Shown: in pieces, positions 4,255-38,703 of the stretch
Position numbering within the stretch: the first letter of the stretch is position 1
Layout: every line of letters starts with the position of its first letter
Assembly (NCBI RefSeq): GCF_900637025.1
Contig: NZ_LR134336.1
Coordinates: 1,456,001-1,520,000, forward strand
Source of the DNA: Streptococcus oralis ATCC 35037
GTDB lineage: Bacteria; Bacillota; Bacilli; Lactobacillales; Streptococcaceae
Reading direction: 5' to 3'
DNA: 64,000 nucleotides
The notes under the pieces: model-generated
The model's database searches: none
What the model was told of the DNA's origin: nothing
What the model saw: only the letters and a program-made list of their open reading frames with translations
Translations under genes and position numbers: made by a program

Positions 4255-5205
4255 CTAGCCTCCAATCACACCAGAAATATCCTTGGTCTTCTTAAAGACA
4301 CAGGCATTCCATTCCCCTTGAATCATGTGGGTTTCAAGGAAAAATCCAGCTGACTCAGCTGACTCGCGCACCATGTCCCACTTGTCCTTGATAATGCCAC
4401 TCATGATCAGGTAGCCTTCGTCCTTGACCAAACGATAAGCATCGTCTGTCAGATGAATGAGAATATCCGCCAAGATATTGGCCACAATGACATCTGCTTC
4501 AATCTCCACACCCTTGAGCAAATCTCCAGCAGCAACATGGATGTTTTCCATGCCAGGGTTGAGCTCGATATTTTCTTGAGCCACCCGAACCGCCACATCA
4601 TCCAGGTCATAGGCGAAAATTTTCTTAGCACCAAGCAGCGAGCTTGCAATGGAGAGAACCCCTGAACCAGTTCCTACATCAAGCACCGTTTCGCCACCAC
4701 GAAGAACCTGCTCCAAGGCAAAGAGACTCATCTTGGTCGTCGGGTGGGTTCCTGTCCCGAAGGCCATACCAGGATCTAGCTTGATAATCTTTTCTCCTGC
4801 AGTCGCCTTATAGTCCGTCCAGGACGGCACAATGGTCAAGTCATGAGTGATGCGAGCTGGTTCATAGTATTTCTTCCAGTTGTCGGCCCAGTCTTCCTCA
4901 GCCAAGGCAGTCGTCCCCATCTTGACCTCTCCCAAATCCATAAAATCTGTCAATTCTGCTAAGCGAGACTGTAAGTCTGCCTCAACCACTGCCACATCAA
5001 CCGTATCAGGATAGTAGGCTGTCACCACGATTTCTTCTTGCTGCTCGACCTCTGGGAAAATCTCACCGAAGCGATCCACATTTCCCACATAGTCCATACT
5101 GTCCTCGATCGCAACACCTTGCGCTCCCAGCTCAATCAGAAGGTTAGAGACCAGCTCCTCTCCCTCACGCTTAACTGTAACTTTTAACTCTTGCCATGTT
5201 TCCAT
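4255..5205 (-). CDS. prmA: Ribosomal protein L11 methyltransferase
   Basis: PrmA trimethylates ribosomal protein L11. The 316-residue length is normal. The Rossmann methyltransferase motif I reads [12 protein letters not shown], after the substrate-recognition segment [12 protein letters not shown], and a later [11 protein letters not shown] segment matches the PrmA-specific motif that replaces NPPY. The gene overlaps nothing upstream and abuts rsmE downstream. The three-gene AT-rich cassette at 5236-8550 lies just upstream on the same strand, separated by only 30 bases. prmA may therefore now be transcribed through that cassette. Confidence 0.95.
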
Positions 5206-5235
5206 ATTTATTTACTTTCTATAATTCTAGTTTAC

Positions 5236-5991
5236 TTATAAATGATGTCCAATCTTACCCAAAACAATCTTTTTTTCTGTTTCATCAAAGTTAAAATATA
5301 TGCGAGCGCTACTGTCAGGTCGAAACAATTTAAAATGCATAATATAATAATGTTTTCCAATTTTATATTTTCTTTTTGTTTCTCCACTTCCCATACTTGA
5401 ACAATTTCCTACAGATGAATTTAAATTATCAATTAATCCTTTTCTATTTCCAATAAATGAATCTAATTTATTACCATAACAAAAATCATTCAAATCATCT
5501 AAAACTCGTAAGATTTCTTCTTTATAATCCTTTGGTAAATAATCTTTAACAAATTCAAATACAAAATCTTCTTCTGCTAATATAAAATTATCAAAATAAG
5601 GTATTTTTAGAGTTGATTCAAATTCACTCATCGGCATCGATAATATGAACTCTTTTTCTAGTTTCATTGCTTCCGCATCATTAATGACTGAATTTTTTAT
5701 CTCTCTATCTGTTAAATATTTATAGTAGGGTTCACTTTCAATATCCTGATAAGTATTTTTGGAGGATATGTTAAACTTAGAAAAATCTGGAAGATAATAT
5801 GTTATTAATTCATTGGATATATTCTCAAAACTATTACCCATATCATCTTTCATAAAAAAATATTCCTCAGGTATTTTACAAGAATCATTTTTCAAATTTT
5901 GTAATGTATATTTTGTATAGTCACTATTCATTGTGAGATTTTGAAAATCACAAGGAGTATGTAAATACAATTCACCAATCTTATGTTTCAT
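5236..5991 (-). CDS. Unrecognised protein with RelE-like C-terminal segment, third gene of putative defence cassette
   Basis: I do not recognise the full 251-residue protein. It is acidic, soluble and very AT-rich in codon use, with no signal peptide. The last 40 residues (HYYIMHFKLFRPDSSARIYF, then a short acidic turn, then KIVLGKIGHHL) look like the final beta strands of RelE/ParE-fold proteins: a basic RxxxxxARIYF strand followed by IVLGxIGxHL. That resemblance is by eye and could be chance. It starts one base after the stop of the upstream ATPase gene, so the two are surely co-translated. Possible roles are an effector toxin or a specificity partner of the ATPase; neither is shown. Confidence 0.5.
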   Translation of the reverse strand: MKHKIGELYLHTPCDFQNLTMNSDYTKYTLQNLKNDSCKIPEEYFFMKDDMGNSFENISNELITYYLPDFSKFNISSKNTYQDIESEPYYKYLTDREIKNSVINDAEAMKLEKEFILSMPMSEFESTLKIPYFDNFILAEEDFVFEFVKDYLPKDYKEEILRVLDDLNDFCYGNKLDSFIGNRKGLIDNLNSSVGNCSSMGSGETKRKYKIGKHYYIMHFKLFRPDSSARIYFNFDETEKKIVLGKIGHHL

Positions 5992-5992
5992 G

Positions 5993-7084
5993 CTATTTTC
6001 CTAATCTATGCTTCATCATTTCAAATAAATCAATCTTAGCTTGATCAAAGAAACCTTTTGGCCAATCAATAATTTCTCCTGATTCATTAATTCTAATAGA
6101 AATTATTTCATGTCTTCCATCTTGTTTATTAAAATAATATAATCTAAAATCTGATTCAACACACTTTTGTCTTAAACTATATAATCTCATACCATTAATT
6201 ACATGGTCACTATGTGTTTCAACGATTACCTGAACTCCCCCTTTATGACTTAATTCAGCTAAAAATTGTCCAATTTGAGACTGTCCATACGGATGCAAGT
6301 GTGCCTCTGGATTCTCAACAATGAGTACCCTCTCTTTCTTGTCTTTATTATTTAAGACTGATAGATAAAGTCCTTGAACTATGATCGGTAGAATATATGA
6401 TATCCCAAAACCAACATTAGTTGGTAACACATCTATTCCATTTTCTTTAAACCTCAACGAAGACACTCCTAAGTCATCATTGACAGAAACTTCGAATTGA
6501 ACGTCATCAATAATTTTATTTACCCAATACTCACACTCATTTTTAAATCCACCATTACTCTTCTTTATTGCTGTAGGAAATTTCTGGACTCTATACTTAA
6601 TATTAACTCTATATAAAACAAACAGTGTATTCTGCCCAGAACTCCCTACATCTTCGACATCTGTCTCTTCAATCATTTGCGAAACTCTCGGACCGAATCT
6701 TTCAGCATTGATATAATAAAATGTTTTCTCATTTCTTTCATCTGCTACTGTTGATAAGTAATTTTCAGAAAAACGTTCCTCTTCAATAGAGAATTTAGAA
6801 ATTTTATCATCAATACCAATTTGAAATTCCTGTCCACTACTATCTGTATCTATGCTACTATCGGTAAAATTAATTAACTTTGACGGTAAACCTAAATTTA
6901 ACCCAAATATATCATTCGTGTAGATTCGCTTATTTTTTCCAGACAATTCATATAATAAAAGAGATTGAATAAAAGATGATTTTCCTGCTGAGTTTCTACC
7001 AGTTAATACTGTCAACTTTGATAACTCTATACTTTCATCTTGAAAACACTTATAATTTTTTATCCTTACATTTCTAATAGGCAT
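5993..7084 (-). CDS. SMC/OLD-like AAA ATPase (DUF3696-type)
   Basis: This 363-residue ATPase belongs to the ABC/SMC-like group found in phage-defence modules. Walker A is TGRNSAGKSS (residues 28-37). The distal half has a Walker B-like segment RVLIVENPEAHLHP followed by VQVIVETHSDHVINGMRL, an arrangement shared with OLD, RecF and DUF3696 proteins. No nuclease (Toprim) domain follows, since the protein ends soon after the ATPase fold, so it probably powers or regulates the neighbouring proteins. Its start overlaps the end of the DUF262 gene by 19 bases. The codon usage is much more AT-rich than that of the core genes on both sides. Confidence 0.75.
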   Translation of the reverse strand: MPIRNVRIKNYKCFQDESIELSKLTVLTGRNSAGKSSFIQSLLLYELSGKNKRIYTNDIFGLNLGLPSKLINFTDSSIDTDSSGQEFQIGIDDKISKFSIEEERFSENYLSTVADERNEKTFYYINAERFGPRVSQMIEETDVEDVGSSGQNTLFVLYRVNIKYRVQKFPTAIKKSNGGFKNECEYWVNKIIDDVQFEVSVNDDLGVSSLRFKENGIDVLPTNVGFGISYILPIIVQGLYLSVLNNKDKKERVLIVENPEAHLHPYGQSQIGQFLAELSHKGGVQVIVETHSDHVINGMRLYSLRQKCVESDFRLYYFNKQDGRHEIISIRINESGEIIDWPKGFFDQAKIDLFEMMKHRLGK

Positions 7085-8550
7085 TCGTCAATTACCTCCT
7101 GACACATTTTAAAATAATTTTCTACCTTACTCTTACTATTCGTTGAAGTTGATATAGACATAAAATTAGTAGGATCTTCTAACTTTTGAGAGAGTTTATC
7201 TAGAGCTATTTGACTATAATTTCCAAAATTAATATTTTCATATTCTCTATTGGCTAAAATAACACTAAACGCACTAAACAGTGGTTTGTTTATTAACATA
7301 GAATATTCGTACTCTTCTTTCTCTTTATTATAGATAACCTTCACAAACGCTTTATCCCCGAATAACTTAAAACATCTACTCATTGAAGTTTTAAAAATTT
7401 CTAAATATTGGCTAAGGCTTTCTTGAGAAATTATCTTATTCAACTTTTCGTTTTCATCATTTAATAAATCAACAATATTAGAACTCTGATAATTTACTTT
7501 TTTTGCTTCAAAATCATAGATTCTATGAAAGGCAAAAAATCGCAATACTAATTCATGATGATCTAATCTCAATGTTTTAACACGCCTGTTAGTCGCAGAT
7601 AGAAACTCTTCAGATTCTGTGCATAAGTTTAATAATTTTCTAGTATAATTTGTACTTACGGCATTTCTCATTTCCTGGTTATTAAGAGCTTTCCCTCCAG
7701 TGTTAATTCGTTTAAAAATATCATAAATGATTCTGTGTGGAGAATCGTAACTAAGTATATTCAAAGATAACTGTGTTCTGTTTATTCTACTTTTTATTTT
7801 TGGAGGGAGCTCCGAAAATCTACTTCCATTGTAGGAATCACCCAGATACTCTAATGACGACAACCGAAACTTATCATTTAAAAAATCAAAAATTGTTGTC
7901 AAACGTTGCTGACCATCTATAACCGAGAACTCATAATCATCATTACTATCTGCGCCCGTTTCATACAAGTAAAATGCTGGTATTGGTATACTTAACATCA
8001 ATGATTCAATTAAGTGAGATTTTCTCTTGTTTTCTTTCCAAACATAACCACGTTGGAAATCTGGACTTAAGTTAATTGCATCTTCTGTATGAAGTTCATG
8101 CAAATATTTAACTGAAAGCAACTGTTGTTGAATGTTGATATCTTCTGGATTAAATGGACTACTAATATCCTCTGTAATCTCTTGCTCTGTATTTTCAACT
8201 CCTAAAAAATTATTTTCCGTTTTTTCAATAGTCAGTTCTTGAAGTAACTCCTGGAACTCAATAAAATTCAATGCCTCCTCATTAAGAGACCTATAAAAGA
8301 ACAACTCCCCTTCTTCAATTACCACAACGAACGCTGGAACTTGAGAATACGATTCGATACGCTCTAGTATATCATTATATTTTTTATACTTTTCTTTATA
8401 TTCCAATATTACAAATGGCTTCTCGGAATGGAAAATAGCAAAATCTACAAATAAATGATTATGGTTATCTTTACTAATTTCATGATTTTTCCGAATGTCA
8501 TAGCCTACAAATTTTTCCTTTAATTTATCAAAAATCTGTTGTTCTTTCAT
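7066..8550 (-). CDS. PD-(D/E)XK-like plus DUF262 (GmrS-like) fusion, first gene of putative defence cassette
   Basis: The 494-residue protein appears to be a fusion. Residues 1-90 resemble the N-terminal nuclease fold of type I restriction R proteins, with D36 in FVDFAIF and E50-Y-K52 in VILEYKEK forming a D...ExK signature. Residues 155-230 carry both DUF262 hallmarks, DFQRGYVW (164-171) and IDGQQRLTTI (211-220), known from the ParB/Srx-like nucleotide-using domain of GmrSD type IV restriction enzymes. The C-terminal 250 residues are helical and contain an RRVKTLRLDHHELVLRF segment. A good AAGGAG site precedes the ATG. It heads a tight operon with the ATPase and the RelE-like-tail gene. Confidence 0.7.
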   Translation of the reverse strand: MKEQQIFDKLKEKFVGYDIRKNHEISKDNHNHLFVDFAIFHSEKPFVILEYKEKYKKYNDILERIESYSQVPAFVVVIEEGELFFYRSLNEEALNFIEFQELLQELTIEKTENNFLGVENTEQEITEDISSPFNPEDINIQQQLLSVKYLHELHTEDAINLSPDFQRGYVWKENKRKSHLIESLMLSIPIPAFYLYETGADSNDDYEFSVIDGQQRLTTIFDFLNDKFRLSSLEYLGDSYNGSRFSELPPKIKSRINRTQLSLNILSYDSPHRIIYDIFKRINTGGKALNNQEMRNAVSTNYTRKLLNLCTESEEFLSATNRRVKTLRLDHHELVLRFFAFHRIYDFEAKKVNYQSSNIVDLLNDENEKLNKIISQESLSQYLEIFKTSMSRCFKLFGDKAFVKVIYNKEKEEYEYSMLINKPLFSAFSVILANREYENINFGNYSQIALDKLSQKLEDPTNFMSISTSTNSKSKVENYFKMCQEVIDECLLEM

Positions 8551-8584
8551 AATATATTCTCCTTTTTGGTTTTATTTTTATTAT

Positions 8585-9055
8585 CTAGTATCTCGGATAA
8601 GGATAAAATTCTCCCTCTTCCAAGCCAACTTTTCCTTCTTCAAAGACTTCTTGGTTCCATTCCATGACAAACTCCTCTGCTTCTGGGTCTTCCAAAAAGT
8701 CCATGAGCGCATCCAGCCCAACCTCTGCAGTGTCTTTGAGGAATAGCGCAAAATAAGCTAGAAACTCACGAGAAAAACCTTTTTTAGGTAGGTAAGGGAT
8801 AACTGTCAAATAGTCTTCCTCATTGACTGTTGACTTGGCAGGATTGTAGAAAAGGACTGCTTCTTCAAAGAGGATATCGTCTGATGATACCTCTCCGTCC
8901 TCGTCCACCATCTCCACACCTGCAGCGTTTTGTGCTTCCAAAAGAAAACTCACTTCTACCGCATGGTTGCGCTTGTCCCAACTAATCTCAAAGTCAAAGG
9001 GAAAGTTCTTCTCCAATTCTTCCTCTAAAACATCTAAAAATCCGTATGTTGCCAT
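8585..9055 (-). CDS. DUF3013 family protein
   Basis: This 156-residue, very acidic protein matches the DUF3013 family of streptococci and lactococci. It begins MATYGFLDVLEEELEKNFPF and ends with a Glu/Tyr-rich tail (EEGEFYPYPRY). It has no membrane segment. The function is unknown; conserved synteny near prmA and rarA suggests a housekeeping role. The AT-rich DUF262 cassette begins 34 bases downstream, so the gap between this gene and prmA is where that cassette was inserted. Confidence 0.75.
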   Translation of the reverse strand: MATYGFLDVLEEELEKNFPFDFEISWDKRNHAVEVSFLLEAQNAAGVEMVDEDGEVSSDDILFEEAVLFYNPAKSTVNEEDYLTVIPYLPKKGFSREFLAYFALFLKDTAEVGLDALMDFLEDPEAEEFVMEWNQEVFEEGKVGLEEGEFYPYPRY

Positions 9056-28380: not shown

Positions 28381-28626
28381 AAAAATCCCCACGCAAAATA
28401 ACTTGCGTGAGGACGAAATTCGCGGTGCCACCTCAATTATAGGATTTCTCCTATCTCTCATTCCTGTCTCAGAACTTTCCTATAACAGGCTGTGCGATAA
28501 AGGGCACTCCCTTGAGAATTATGTTTTCTTCTCTCGTTTCAGATGGACCCAACCTTACAGCTTTCTCTGCTTGTTTCCAGCAACCACAAGCTCTCTGTGA
28601 GAGAAAAGACTGTAATTTTTCCATCT
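28381..28626 (-). promoter_or_regulatory. Tryptophan T-box riboswitch upstream of trpE
   Basis: On the minus strand the conserved T-box GGTGGCACCGCG lies at 28421-28432. It is followed by a terminator (CCTCACGCAA/TTGCGTGGGG plus Ts, 28381-28413). Stem I closes with GATGGA/TCCATC and TTACAG/CTGTAA. The 3' side of the internal loop reads GGTTGGG, giving TGG as the specifier codon, so it senses uncharged tRNA-Trp. Its 5' stem begins 2 bases after the stop of the second trpB, leaving no room for a promoter of its own except inside that gene. Confidence 0.9.
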
Positions 28627-28627
28627 T

Positions 28628-29806
28628 TTATTTTTTAGCTTCTAGGTAGTCTGCAATAGCAGCTACGTCCTTGTCTCCACGACCAGAGACATTGATGATG
28701 ATAATGTCATCCTTACTAAGTTTCGGTGCACGTTTAACCGCTTCTGCGATAGCGTGCGAACTTTCGATCGCTGGGATAATCCCTTCAGTCTTGCTTAGAA
28801 GGAGCAAGGCTTGAACAGCTTCTTCATCTGTCGCTGCTACGTATTCTACACGGCCTGAATCTTTAAAGTAGGCATGTTCTGGGCCAACCCCTGGATAGTC
28901 CAAACCAGCTGAGATAGAGTAAACTGGGGCCAGCTCTCCATCTTCCTTAAAGACTGCATAGGTCTTCATACCGTCGACAATTCCGATACTACCTTTTGTC
29001 ATAGTAGCTGCGTGCTTGTCTGTATCCAGTCCGTGACCGGCAGCTTCTACTCCTACCAATTTGACTTCTTCATCAGCCACATACTGTGAAAAAGCACCGA
29101 TAGCATTAGAACCACCACCTACACAGGCAATGACGTAGTCTGGTAAACGGCCTTCTTTTTCTAAGATTTGACGACGAGATTCTTCACTGATGACCTTTTG
29201 GAATTCATGAACAATTGTAGGATAAGGATGAGGTCCTACAGCAGATCCCAAAACGTAGAAGGCTTCAAGGTCATTCATCCATGCTCCAAAGGCTGCATCA
29301 ACCGCATCCTTAAGAGTTCGTGTCCCCGTTTCAACTGCGTGAACAGTCGCTCCCATCATCTCCATACGGAAGACATTGAGTCGTTGACGCTCCACATCTT
29401 CTGCCCCCATGTAGACATCACAGGCCATACCAAACTTAGCTGCAGCTGCTGCTGTCGCAACACCGTGCTGACCAGCTCCTGTTTCTGCGATCACTCGTTT
29501 TTTGCCCATACGTTTGGCAAGAAGAATTTGTCCTAAAACATTGTTGAGCTTGTGAGAACCAAGGTGATTAAGGTCTTCGCGCTTGAGATAAATCTTAGCT
29601 CCACCTAGGTGGTCTGTTAAACTTTCCGCAAAATAGAGCGGTGTTTCGCGACCTGAATAATCCTTCAAGTAATGGCGAAATTCTGCCAAAAATTCTGGAT
29701 CATCCTTGTATTTGTCAAATGTCACTTCCAACTCATCCAACAAAGCCTGAATCGGCTCCGGTACAAAACTACCACCAAATTGTCCAAAATAACCTTTAGT
29801 TGTCAT
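28628..29806 (-). CDS. Second tryptophan synthase beta chain (TrpB paralog)
   Basis: The 392-residue protein is clearly TrpB-type, with the PLP lysine in [11 protein letters not shown], the catalytic Glu in [20 protein letters not shown] and SGRGDKD. It is only moderately similar to the operon TrpB: NHTGAHK becomes NHLGSHK, and the middle and C-terminal thirds differ widely. It therefore looks like an old divergence or transfer rather than a recent duplication. No trpA lies beside it. It has its own promoter and Trp T-box and sits directly upstream of the trpE T-box. It may scavenge indole from the environment; that is inference. Confidence 0.9.
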
Positions 29807-29843: not shown

Positions 29844-30096
29844 AAAAAAGCCCACACACAGAAAACAATCTGTGTGAGGGCGTTGGTAACGCGGTGCCAC
29901 CTCAATTATAAAGGGACTATTCCCCTTTACATCTCTGCCTTGTCTAACAACAAGTTGCACTGTAAGGTGTGCGCACCGAATTTTCATTGTTTCAAATTCA
30001 TTTTTAAAATCAGCCCACTTTCACTACTTCCAACCACCTGTTCACAATCACCACAGGCTCCCTGAAGATCAAAAATAGTTACTTTTCTGATTTGTT
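29844..30096 (-). promoter_or_regulatory. Tryptophan T-box riboswitch upstream of the second trpB
   Basis: The T-box GGTGGCACCGCG is at 29890-29901 and the terminator (GCCCTCACACAGA/TCTGTGTGTGGGC plus Ts) at 29844-29881. Stem I closes with AAATCAG/CTGATTT and ACTA/TAGT. The internal loop reads GAAAGTGGG, placing TGG as the specifier. It is only loosely similar to the T-box at 28381 apart from the conserved box. Confidence 0.9.
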
Positions 30097-30102
30097 GAGA
30101 AT

Positions 30103-38524: not shown

Positions 38525-38561
38525 AAAAACATTGGCAGTAGCCTATTTAAAATTGAATATC

Positions 38562-38703
38562 ATTTTACTTGTTTATGTCGTGAATTGGCACGACGTTTCT
38601 ACAAGGTGCCGGAACACCTAACAATGAGTATGTCAGCTGGAGGTATGGTTTTGGCCATGCCTATTTTGGGGACTTACTTAGGGGATTAAGTAGGTCCTTT
38701 TTC
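38562..38703 (+). promoter_or_regulatory. Purine (guanine-type) riboswitch with terminator
   Basis: The aptamer (38562-38634) has the conserved three-way junction: P2 GTCGTG/CACGAC, J2/3 TTTCTAC, P3 GGTGCCGGAACACC and J3/1 containing AACAAT, closed by TACT/AGTA. A terminator, GGACTTACTTA/TAAGTAGGTCC followed by Ts (38670-38702), is the off state. It lies directly upstream of xpt and pbuX, genes classically repressed by guanine-bound riboswitches. Confidence 0.92.

Follow-up and report, generated by a model that had tools for sequence, protein, structure and literature searches.

A probable Menshen cassette, nsnABC, in the variable slot between DUF3013 and prmA of Streptococcus oralis ATCC 35037

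Composition and identity of the nsnABC cassette

The stretch of DNA analyzed here, from now on called the window, comprises 64,000 nucleotides of the Streptococcus oralis ATCC 35037 genome (contig NZ_LR134336.1, positions 1,456,001 to 1,520,000). Open reading frame (ORF) calling revealed three intact, tightly coupled genes on its minus strand (5236-8550), referred to as nsnA, nsnB and nsnC and located between a DUF3013 gene and prmA (Table 1). The first two genes overlap by 19 nucleotides (7066-7084) and a single nucleotide (5992) separates nsnB from nsnC. GC content is 0.29 for the whole DUF3013-prmA interval compared with roughly 0.43-0.50 for the core genes on either side, in agreement with a preliminary description of the locus that had reported a tightly coupled, AT-rich trio.

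All three proteins match defence models of the PADLOC-DB 2.0.0 library: NsnA matches PDLC03877 (NsnA; 1.9e-103, 345 bits, covering residues 109-491), NsnB matches PDLC03878 (NsnB; 3.2e-95, 318 bits, residues 3-358) and NsnC matches PDLC03919 (NsnC; 1.3e-177, 586 bits, model positions 2-251 of 251). In total, 6 PADLOC matches for NsnA, 4 for NsnC and the best 25 of 140 for NsnB were considered. We take the Nsn model names to denote the Menshen system, whose adjacent genes in the order A-B-C are also found here. It is almost certain that the cassette represents the Menshen anti-phage system nsnABC, which is already named and would be identified by existing defence models. The preliminary description had proposed an undescribed defence system and had regarded identity with a named one as decisive against this; the PADLOC matches support the assignment to defence and show the trio to be such a named system. 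Menshen was reportedly first described in a 2022 paper, and a 2025 paper in Nucleic Acids Research (gkaf357) is said, judging by its title alone, to deal with domain polymorphism of Menshen.

NsnA contains a DUF262 domain (Pfam PF03235, 4.7e-28) with the motifs DGQQR (residues 212-216) and FKRINTGG. Residues 1-115 lie outside the PADLOC model and are predicted to adopt a PD-(D/E)XK fold with D36, E50 and K52 in place. The AlphaFold2 (AF2) model (mean predicted local distance difference test score, pLDDT, 78.8) resembles Hjc/HsdR-like nucleases N-terminally and BrxU, SspE and ParB in its middle part, with BrxU as the top Foldseek match. Both a PD-(D/E)XK nuclease-like N-terminus and a DUF262 middle domain are thus supported at the fold level. 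The nuclease-DUF262 fusion proposed in the preliminary description is borne out to this extent, and the D36, E50-x-K52 and DUF262 motifs it named are all found. Of the 12 long NsnA relatives compared, 7 have all three putative catalytic residues; among the matches listed, 108 of 120 relatives are at most 434 amino acids (aa) long and do not have the long N-terminus.

NsnB matches AAA_15 (5e-34) followed by DUF3696 (8.1e-13), and its best-scoring solved sequence is the OLD-family protein 6p74 (8.9e-11, residues 210-316). Toprim is absent from its 10 Pfam matches (E≤1). Walker A, ENPEAHLHP and ETHSDH segments are present as previously described, and the Pfam and 6p74 matches uphold the earlier assignment as an OLD/SMC-like ATPase without Toprim. 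According to excerpts of a review (PMC10952713), Menshen is a phage-resistance system that pairs a DUF262 gene with a predicted OLD nuclease, its resistance is abolished when the DUF262 gene is mutated or deleted, and a Toprim domain is associated, in general wording, with one of its components. No Toprim family was found in NsnA, NsnB or NsnC (Pfam, E≤1).

NsnC matches no Pfam (E≤1), NCBIfam or PHROGs (E≤0.1) family, and the PDB sequence set returned nothing at E≤10; within the libraries searched it has no family other than the PADLOC NsnC models. Two word-based searches found 15 and 16 protein clusters including the window's own, the most distant being 53% identical, and no phage or plasmid record matches the window's NsnC at 1e-5. 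In a low-confidence structural model, residues 131-251 resemble RelE/ParE in 49 of 50 structural rows, which lends weak support to a RelE-like tail; the tail claimed earlier can be recognized in this model at the fold level only. H219, K221, R224, R230 and H250 of the tail are invariant among 13 relatives. A putative RelE-like tail makes the role of this otherwise family-less protein testable.

Based on a single pair (window and Streptococcus thalassemiae), Ka/Ks values are 0.11 for nsnA, 0.10 for nsnB and 0.43 for nsnC; nsnA and nsnB are under purifying selection. Because of these values, and because relatives share the same gene order, the three genes are more than chance ORFs. Promoter-like sites number 27 against 19.1 (standard deviation, sd, 4.3) in shuffled sequences, and terminator-like sites 3 against 1.7 (sd 1.4). 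Elsewhere in the window, minus-strand T-box leaders (28406-28631 and 29873-30098) and a purine riboswitch (38549-38644) were observed.

Table 1 Features of the nsnABC locus, in window coordinates.
Feature	Position	Strand	Details
DUF3013 gene, upstream border of the variable slot	8585..9055	-	Pfam PF11217, 5.9e-63
nsnA, PD-(D/E)XK-like domain fused to DUF262 (GmrSD_N, ParB/Srx-type NTPase) protein	7066..8550	-	494 aa
NsnA, N-terminal nuclease-like domain	8206..8550	-	residues 1-115
NsnA, D36	8443-8445	-	
NsnA, E50	8401-8403	-	
NsnA, K52	8395-8397	-	
NsnA, DUF262/GmrSD_N domain	7660..8085	-	residues 156-297
NsnA, IDGQQR	7903-7920	-	
nsnB, OLD/SMC-like ABC ATPase, C-terminal DUF3696, no Toprim detected	5993..7084	-	363 aa
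NsnB, Walker A GRNSAGKS	6977..7000	-	residues 29-36; from sequence
NsnB, ENPEAHLHP (Walker B region)	6290..6316	-	residues 257-265; from sequence
NsnB, ETHSDH segment	6203..6220	-	residues 289-294; from sequence
nsnC, third component	5236..5991	-	251 aa
NsnC, variable N-terminal segment	5707..5991	-	residues 1-95; two allele classes
NsnC, RelE/ParE-like C-terminal part	5239..5595	-	residues 133-251
prmA, downstream border of the variable slot	4255..5205	-	Pfam PF06325, 2.3e-107

The DUF3013-prmA slot and the spread of Menshen-like genes

The genus search drew on 197 of 284 Streptococcus genomes, 196 of which contained PrmA. PrmA was at least 94% identical in 82 genomes other than the window's, 80 of which were taken in (G129 and G063 were left out). 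After one locus (L067) in which DUF3013 was not seen had been dropped and the window added, 80 sites with both flanks were obtained, corresponding to the window and 79 other Streptococcus genomes with PrmA identities of at least 95%. Slot intervals were taken from the window (5206-8584) and from loci L011-L030 and L061-L120; L007/L024 and L008/L088 each represent a single genome and were counted once. Cargo classes are BLASTP clusters, with a single representative scanned per class.

The preliminary description had placed the trio in an otherwise conserved DUF3013-prmA-rsmE block, which does not hold at the DUF3013-prmA junction: across the 80 sites the gap measures 574-5717 bp (median 1689) and its content varies. 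It usually contains an M50 peptidase, a NUDIX protein and a GNAT acetyltransferase, all lacking from the three Menshen sites. Of the 80 sites, 22 contain defence-type genes: a DUF4357 protein matching PADLOC PDC-S14 (12 sites), intact AbiH (4), Menshen (3) and, at one site each, a reverse transcriptase resembling AbiP2 together with a 4TM protein, IetA/IetS alongside a split AbiH, and a type IIG restriction enzyme. In these streptococci, the interval between DUF3013 and prmA acts like a minor defence hotspot in which additional systems can be sought, and the trio is probably an exchangeable cassette within it. Neither DUF3013 nor prmA was found among the literature matches listed, with a report elsewhere remaining possible. 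For S. suis, an excerpted study places another variable defence locus between rpiA and trmE (PMC5398294).

The commonest defence-type cargo is exemplified by a DUF4357 protein with a length of roughly 299 aa (L112:7574-8473; PDC-S14, 4.2e-109) with counterparts at 11 further sites; the gene ends 10-14 nucleotides ahead of prmA in 11 of the 12 cases. At L115:4156-8505, an IetA/IetS-like pair (AAA ATPase and subtilase) is followed by two AbiH-cluster frames, the first matching AbiH (4.8e-8) and the second matching nothing.

The window's NsnC type was detected in 3 of 284 Streptococcus genomes including the window, always in this slot and beside NsnA and NsnB, so that the third gene co-occurs with the first two, as proposed earlier, in every Streptococcus genome having it. 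The other two copies belong to S. thalassemiae (L007; NsnA 91% identical, copy intact) and S. oralis DD21 (L008; NsnA 92% identical over residues 1-347), a draft genome with runs of N and broken frames in nsnA and nsnC. Matches to the NsnA model (E≤1e-10) were obtained in 40 of the 284 Streptococcus species genomes and also in 4 of the 14 controls; because of the latter, the matches may include other DUF262 proteins and their number does not equal that of Menshen systems. The NsnB family scan hit 284 of 284 genomes and 14 of 14 controls, reflecting general ATPases, and is unusable as a presence test; only its top matches were used. NsnA matches also occur in 182 plasmid and 92 phage records, all below 60% identity, and no single place among them covers 80% of NsnA. 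In viral contigs, a scan able to pick up only close relatives confirmed no match for NsnB.

Seven divergent Streptococcus loci (L121-L127) share this gene order, relatives of NsnA and NsnB being encoded ahead of a third gene, with unlike NsnA N-termini and unlike third genes. All three NsnA proteins scanned from this set match the NsnA model, and 2 of the 7 third genes match NsnC models (E≤0.1). Two of these loci (L123:2173-5626 and L124:4358-7808) have another kind of Menshen-like trio, whose third gene matches no PADLOC NsnC model and which is followed after 0-3 nucleotides by a 509-aa C5-cytosine DNA methylase, identified by PF00145 (4.3e-63) in L123 and by likeness in L124. This arrangement suggests a Menshen system linked to self-marking. 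A C5 methylase, checked against Pfam for L121 only, also follows Menshen-like trios or OLD-like genes in L121, L122, L125, L126 and L127 as well as in L128 and L130. Where the stretch extends far enough, the gene beside these loci is presumably valS, and the site next to this valS-like gene is a second variable defence site.

Variable protein ends and proposed mode of action

Compared with S. thalassemiae, the window's proteins show 91-92% identity for NsnA and NsnB and 71% for NsnC, the latter falling to just 54% over residues 1-95. The NsnA N-terminal domain does not show extra divergence in this pair (90% compared with 91% for the rest). Among 13 NsnC relatives, residues 1-95 are 94-95% identical to the window in 4, 76% in 1 and 51-58% in 8. 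In one relative (P0007), residues 133-251 are 98% identical and residues 1-95 only 56%. NsnA relatives behave similarly: P0017 is 96% identical over residues 131-494 and 59% over residues 1-108, and P0018-P0020 show 73-80% over the body and 36-47% over the N-terminus. Both outer ends of the cassette proteins therefore vary more than the core, and judged by these alignments the N-termini of NsnA and NsnC look like fast-changing, perhaps exchangeable modules. Effectors are often exchangeable, and the tail of the third protein appears to be so too, because DUF4160 lies in the C-terminal half of the third gene product in two other Streptococcus loci.

We hypothesize that the DUF262 domain of NsnA, as a ParB/Srx-type NTPase, and the ABC ATPase NsnB would act together as an NTP-driven sensor that responds to phage DNA or replication. 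Once triggered, this pair would free one or both of two effectors, the N-terminal PD-(D/E)XK nuclease of NsnA and the RelE-like tail of NsnC, the latter cutting mRNA or otherwise stopping growth. The infected cell would die or halt, an abortive outcome. Overall, we favor a Menshen cassette in this slot whose sensor pair releases nuclease and RelE-like effectors as the probable reading, while the assignment of the two effectors themselves is tentative and somewhat short of even odds. A more elaborate version is speculative and rather unlikely: a two-effector Menshen in which the sensor pair drives NsnA as a DNA nuclease and NsnC as a RelE-type ribosome-dependent RNase, with hypervariable outer ends swapped by transformation at the DUF3013-prmA slot and so following changing phages.

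A possible but less likely explanation is that the nuclease is the only effector, NsnA cleaving phage DNA in the manner of a type IV restriction enzyme, with NsnB as regulator and NsnC as a sensor or adaptor recognizing the phage. The resemblance of NsnA to BrxU and Hjc/HsdR-like nucleases fits this, as does the occurrence of two allele classes of NsnC residues 1-95 next to an NsnB that is 92% identical in S. thalassemiae, a pattern to be expected of a recognition part. However, most of the NsnA relatives listed do not have the long N-terminus, a third gene is present in 7 of 7 other Streptococcus loci read, and the RelE-like tail would be left unexplained. An improbable alternative is a barrier to plasmids or transforming DNA instead of phages, similar to SMC-like systems such as Wadjet. 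An SMC/OLD-type ATPase would suit such a barrier, and the genus Streptococcus is naturally competent; however, NsnB with just 363 aa would not have space for long SMC arms, and Menshen is treated as a phage-resistance system in the review excerpts cited above (PMC10952713). Finally, a distinct, unnamed three-gene system sharing only general DUF262 and ATPase parts with Menshen is very improbable: NsnB has further matches to HEC-03B, AriA and PDC-M55A, NsnA has one to PD-T4-2_A, and the Toprim domain that the same excerpts link to Menshen (PMC10952713) was not detected, but the scores of these further matches are far lower (126 against 345 bits for NsnA, 133 against 318 bits for NsnB) and the NsnC model is matched over its full length.

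Comparison with known systems

RelE/ParE/HigB toxins are similar to NsnC residues 131-251 at the fold level; however, the NsnC tail is fused behind a 130-residue N-terminal part and is invisible to sequence profiles, and nsnC is flanked by nsnB and prmA instead of an antitoxin-type gene. PD-T4-2 shares a DUF262 component A with NsnA (126 bits), which the NsnA model outscores; its second component was not found among the 4 NsnC matches.

OLD, Gabija GajA and PARIS AriA have the ATPase part in common with NsnB. In contrast to OLD and Gabija, NsnB is short and ends in DUF3696, and the best stretch of its GajA and Old matches, among the matches listed, lies at profile positions ≤435; both systems were ruled out as Toprim was not detected (Pfam, E≤1). 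AriA scores 125 bits against 318 for the NsnB model, and PARIS was ruled out as no AriB partner is present among the 6 NsnA and 4 NsnC PADLOC matches. GmrSD/BrxU type IV restriction enzymes share DUF262 with IDGQQR, BrxU being the closest structural match, but NsnA has an N-terminal PD-(D/E)XK-like domain instead and is accompanied by two further genes. As no DUF1524 (HNH) family was found in NsnA, NsnB or NsnC (Pfam, E≤1), GmrSD was ruled out as well.

With Menshen, all three proteins agree and the gene order is shared, NsnC matching along its entire length, and these matches rule out a new system. The difference lies in NsnA, where the PADLOC match leaves the N-terminal nuclease-like domain of the window's protein outside. 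The finding is real and the system, ordinary as such, is not new; it is a Menshen cassette whose proteins here carry an additional nuclease-like domain as well as a tail resembling a toxin.
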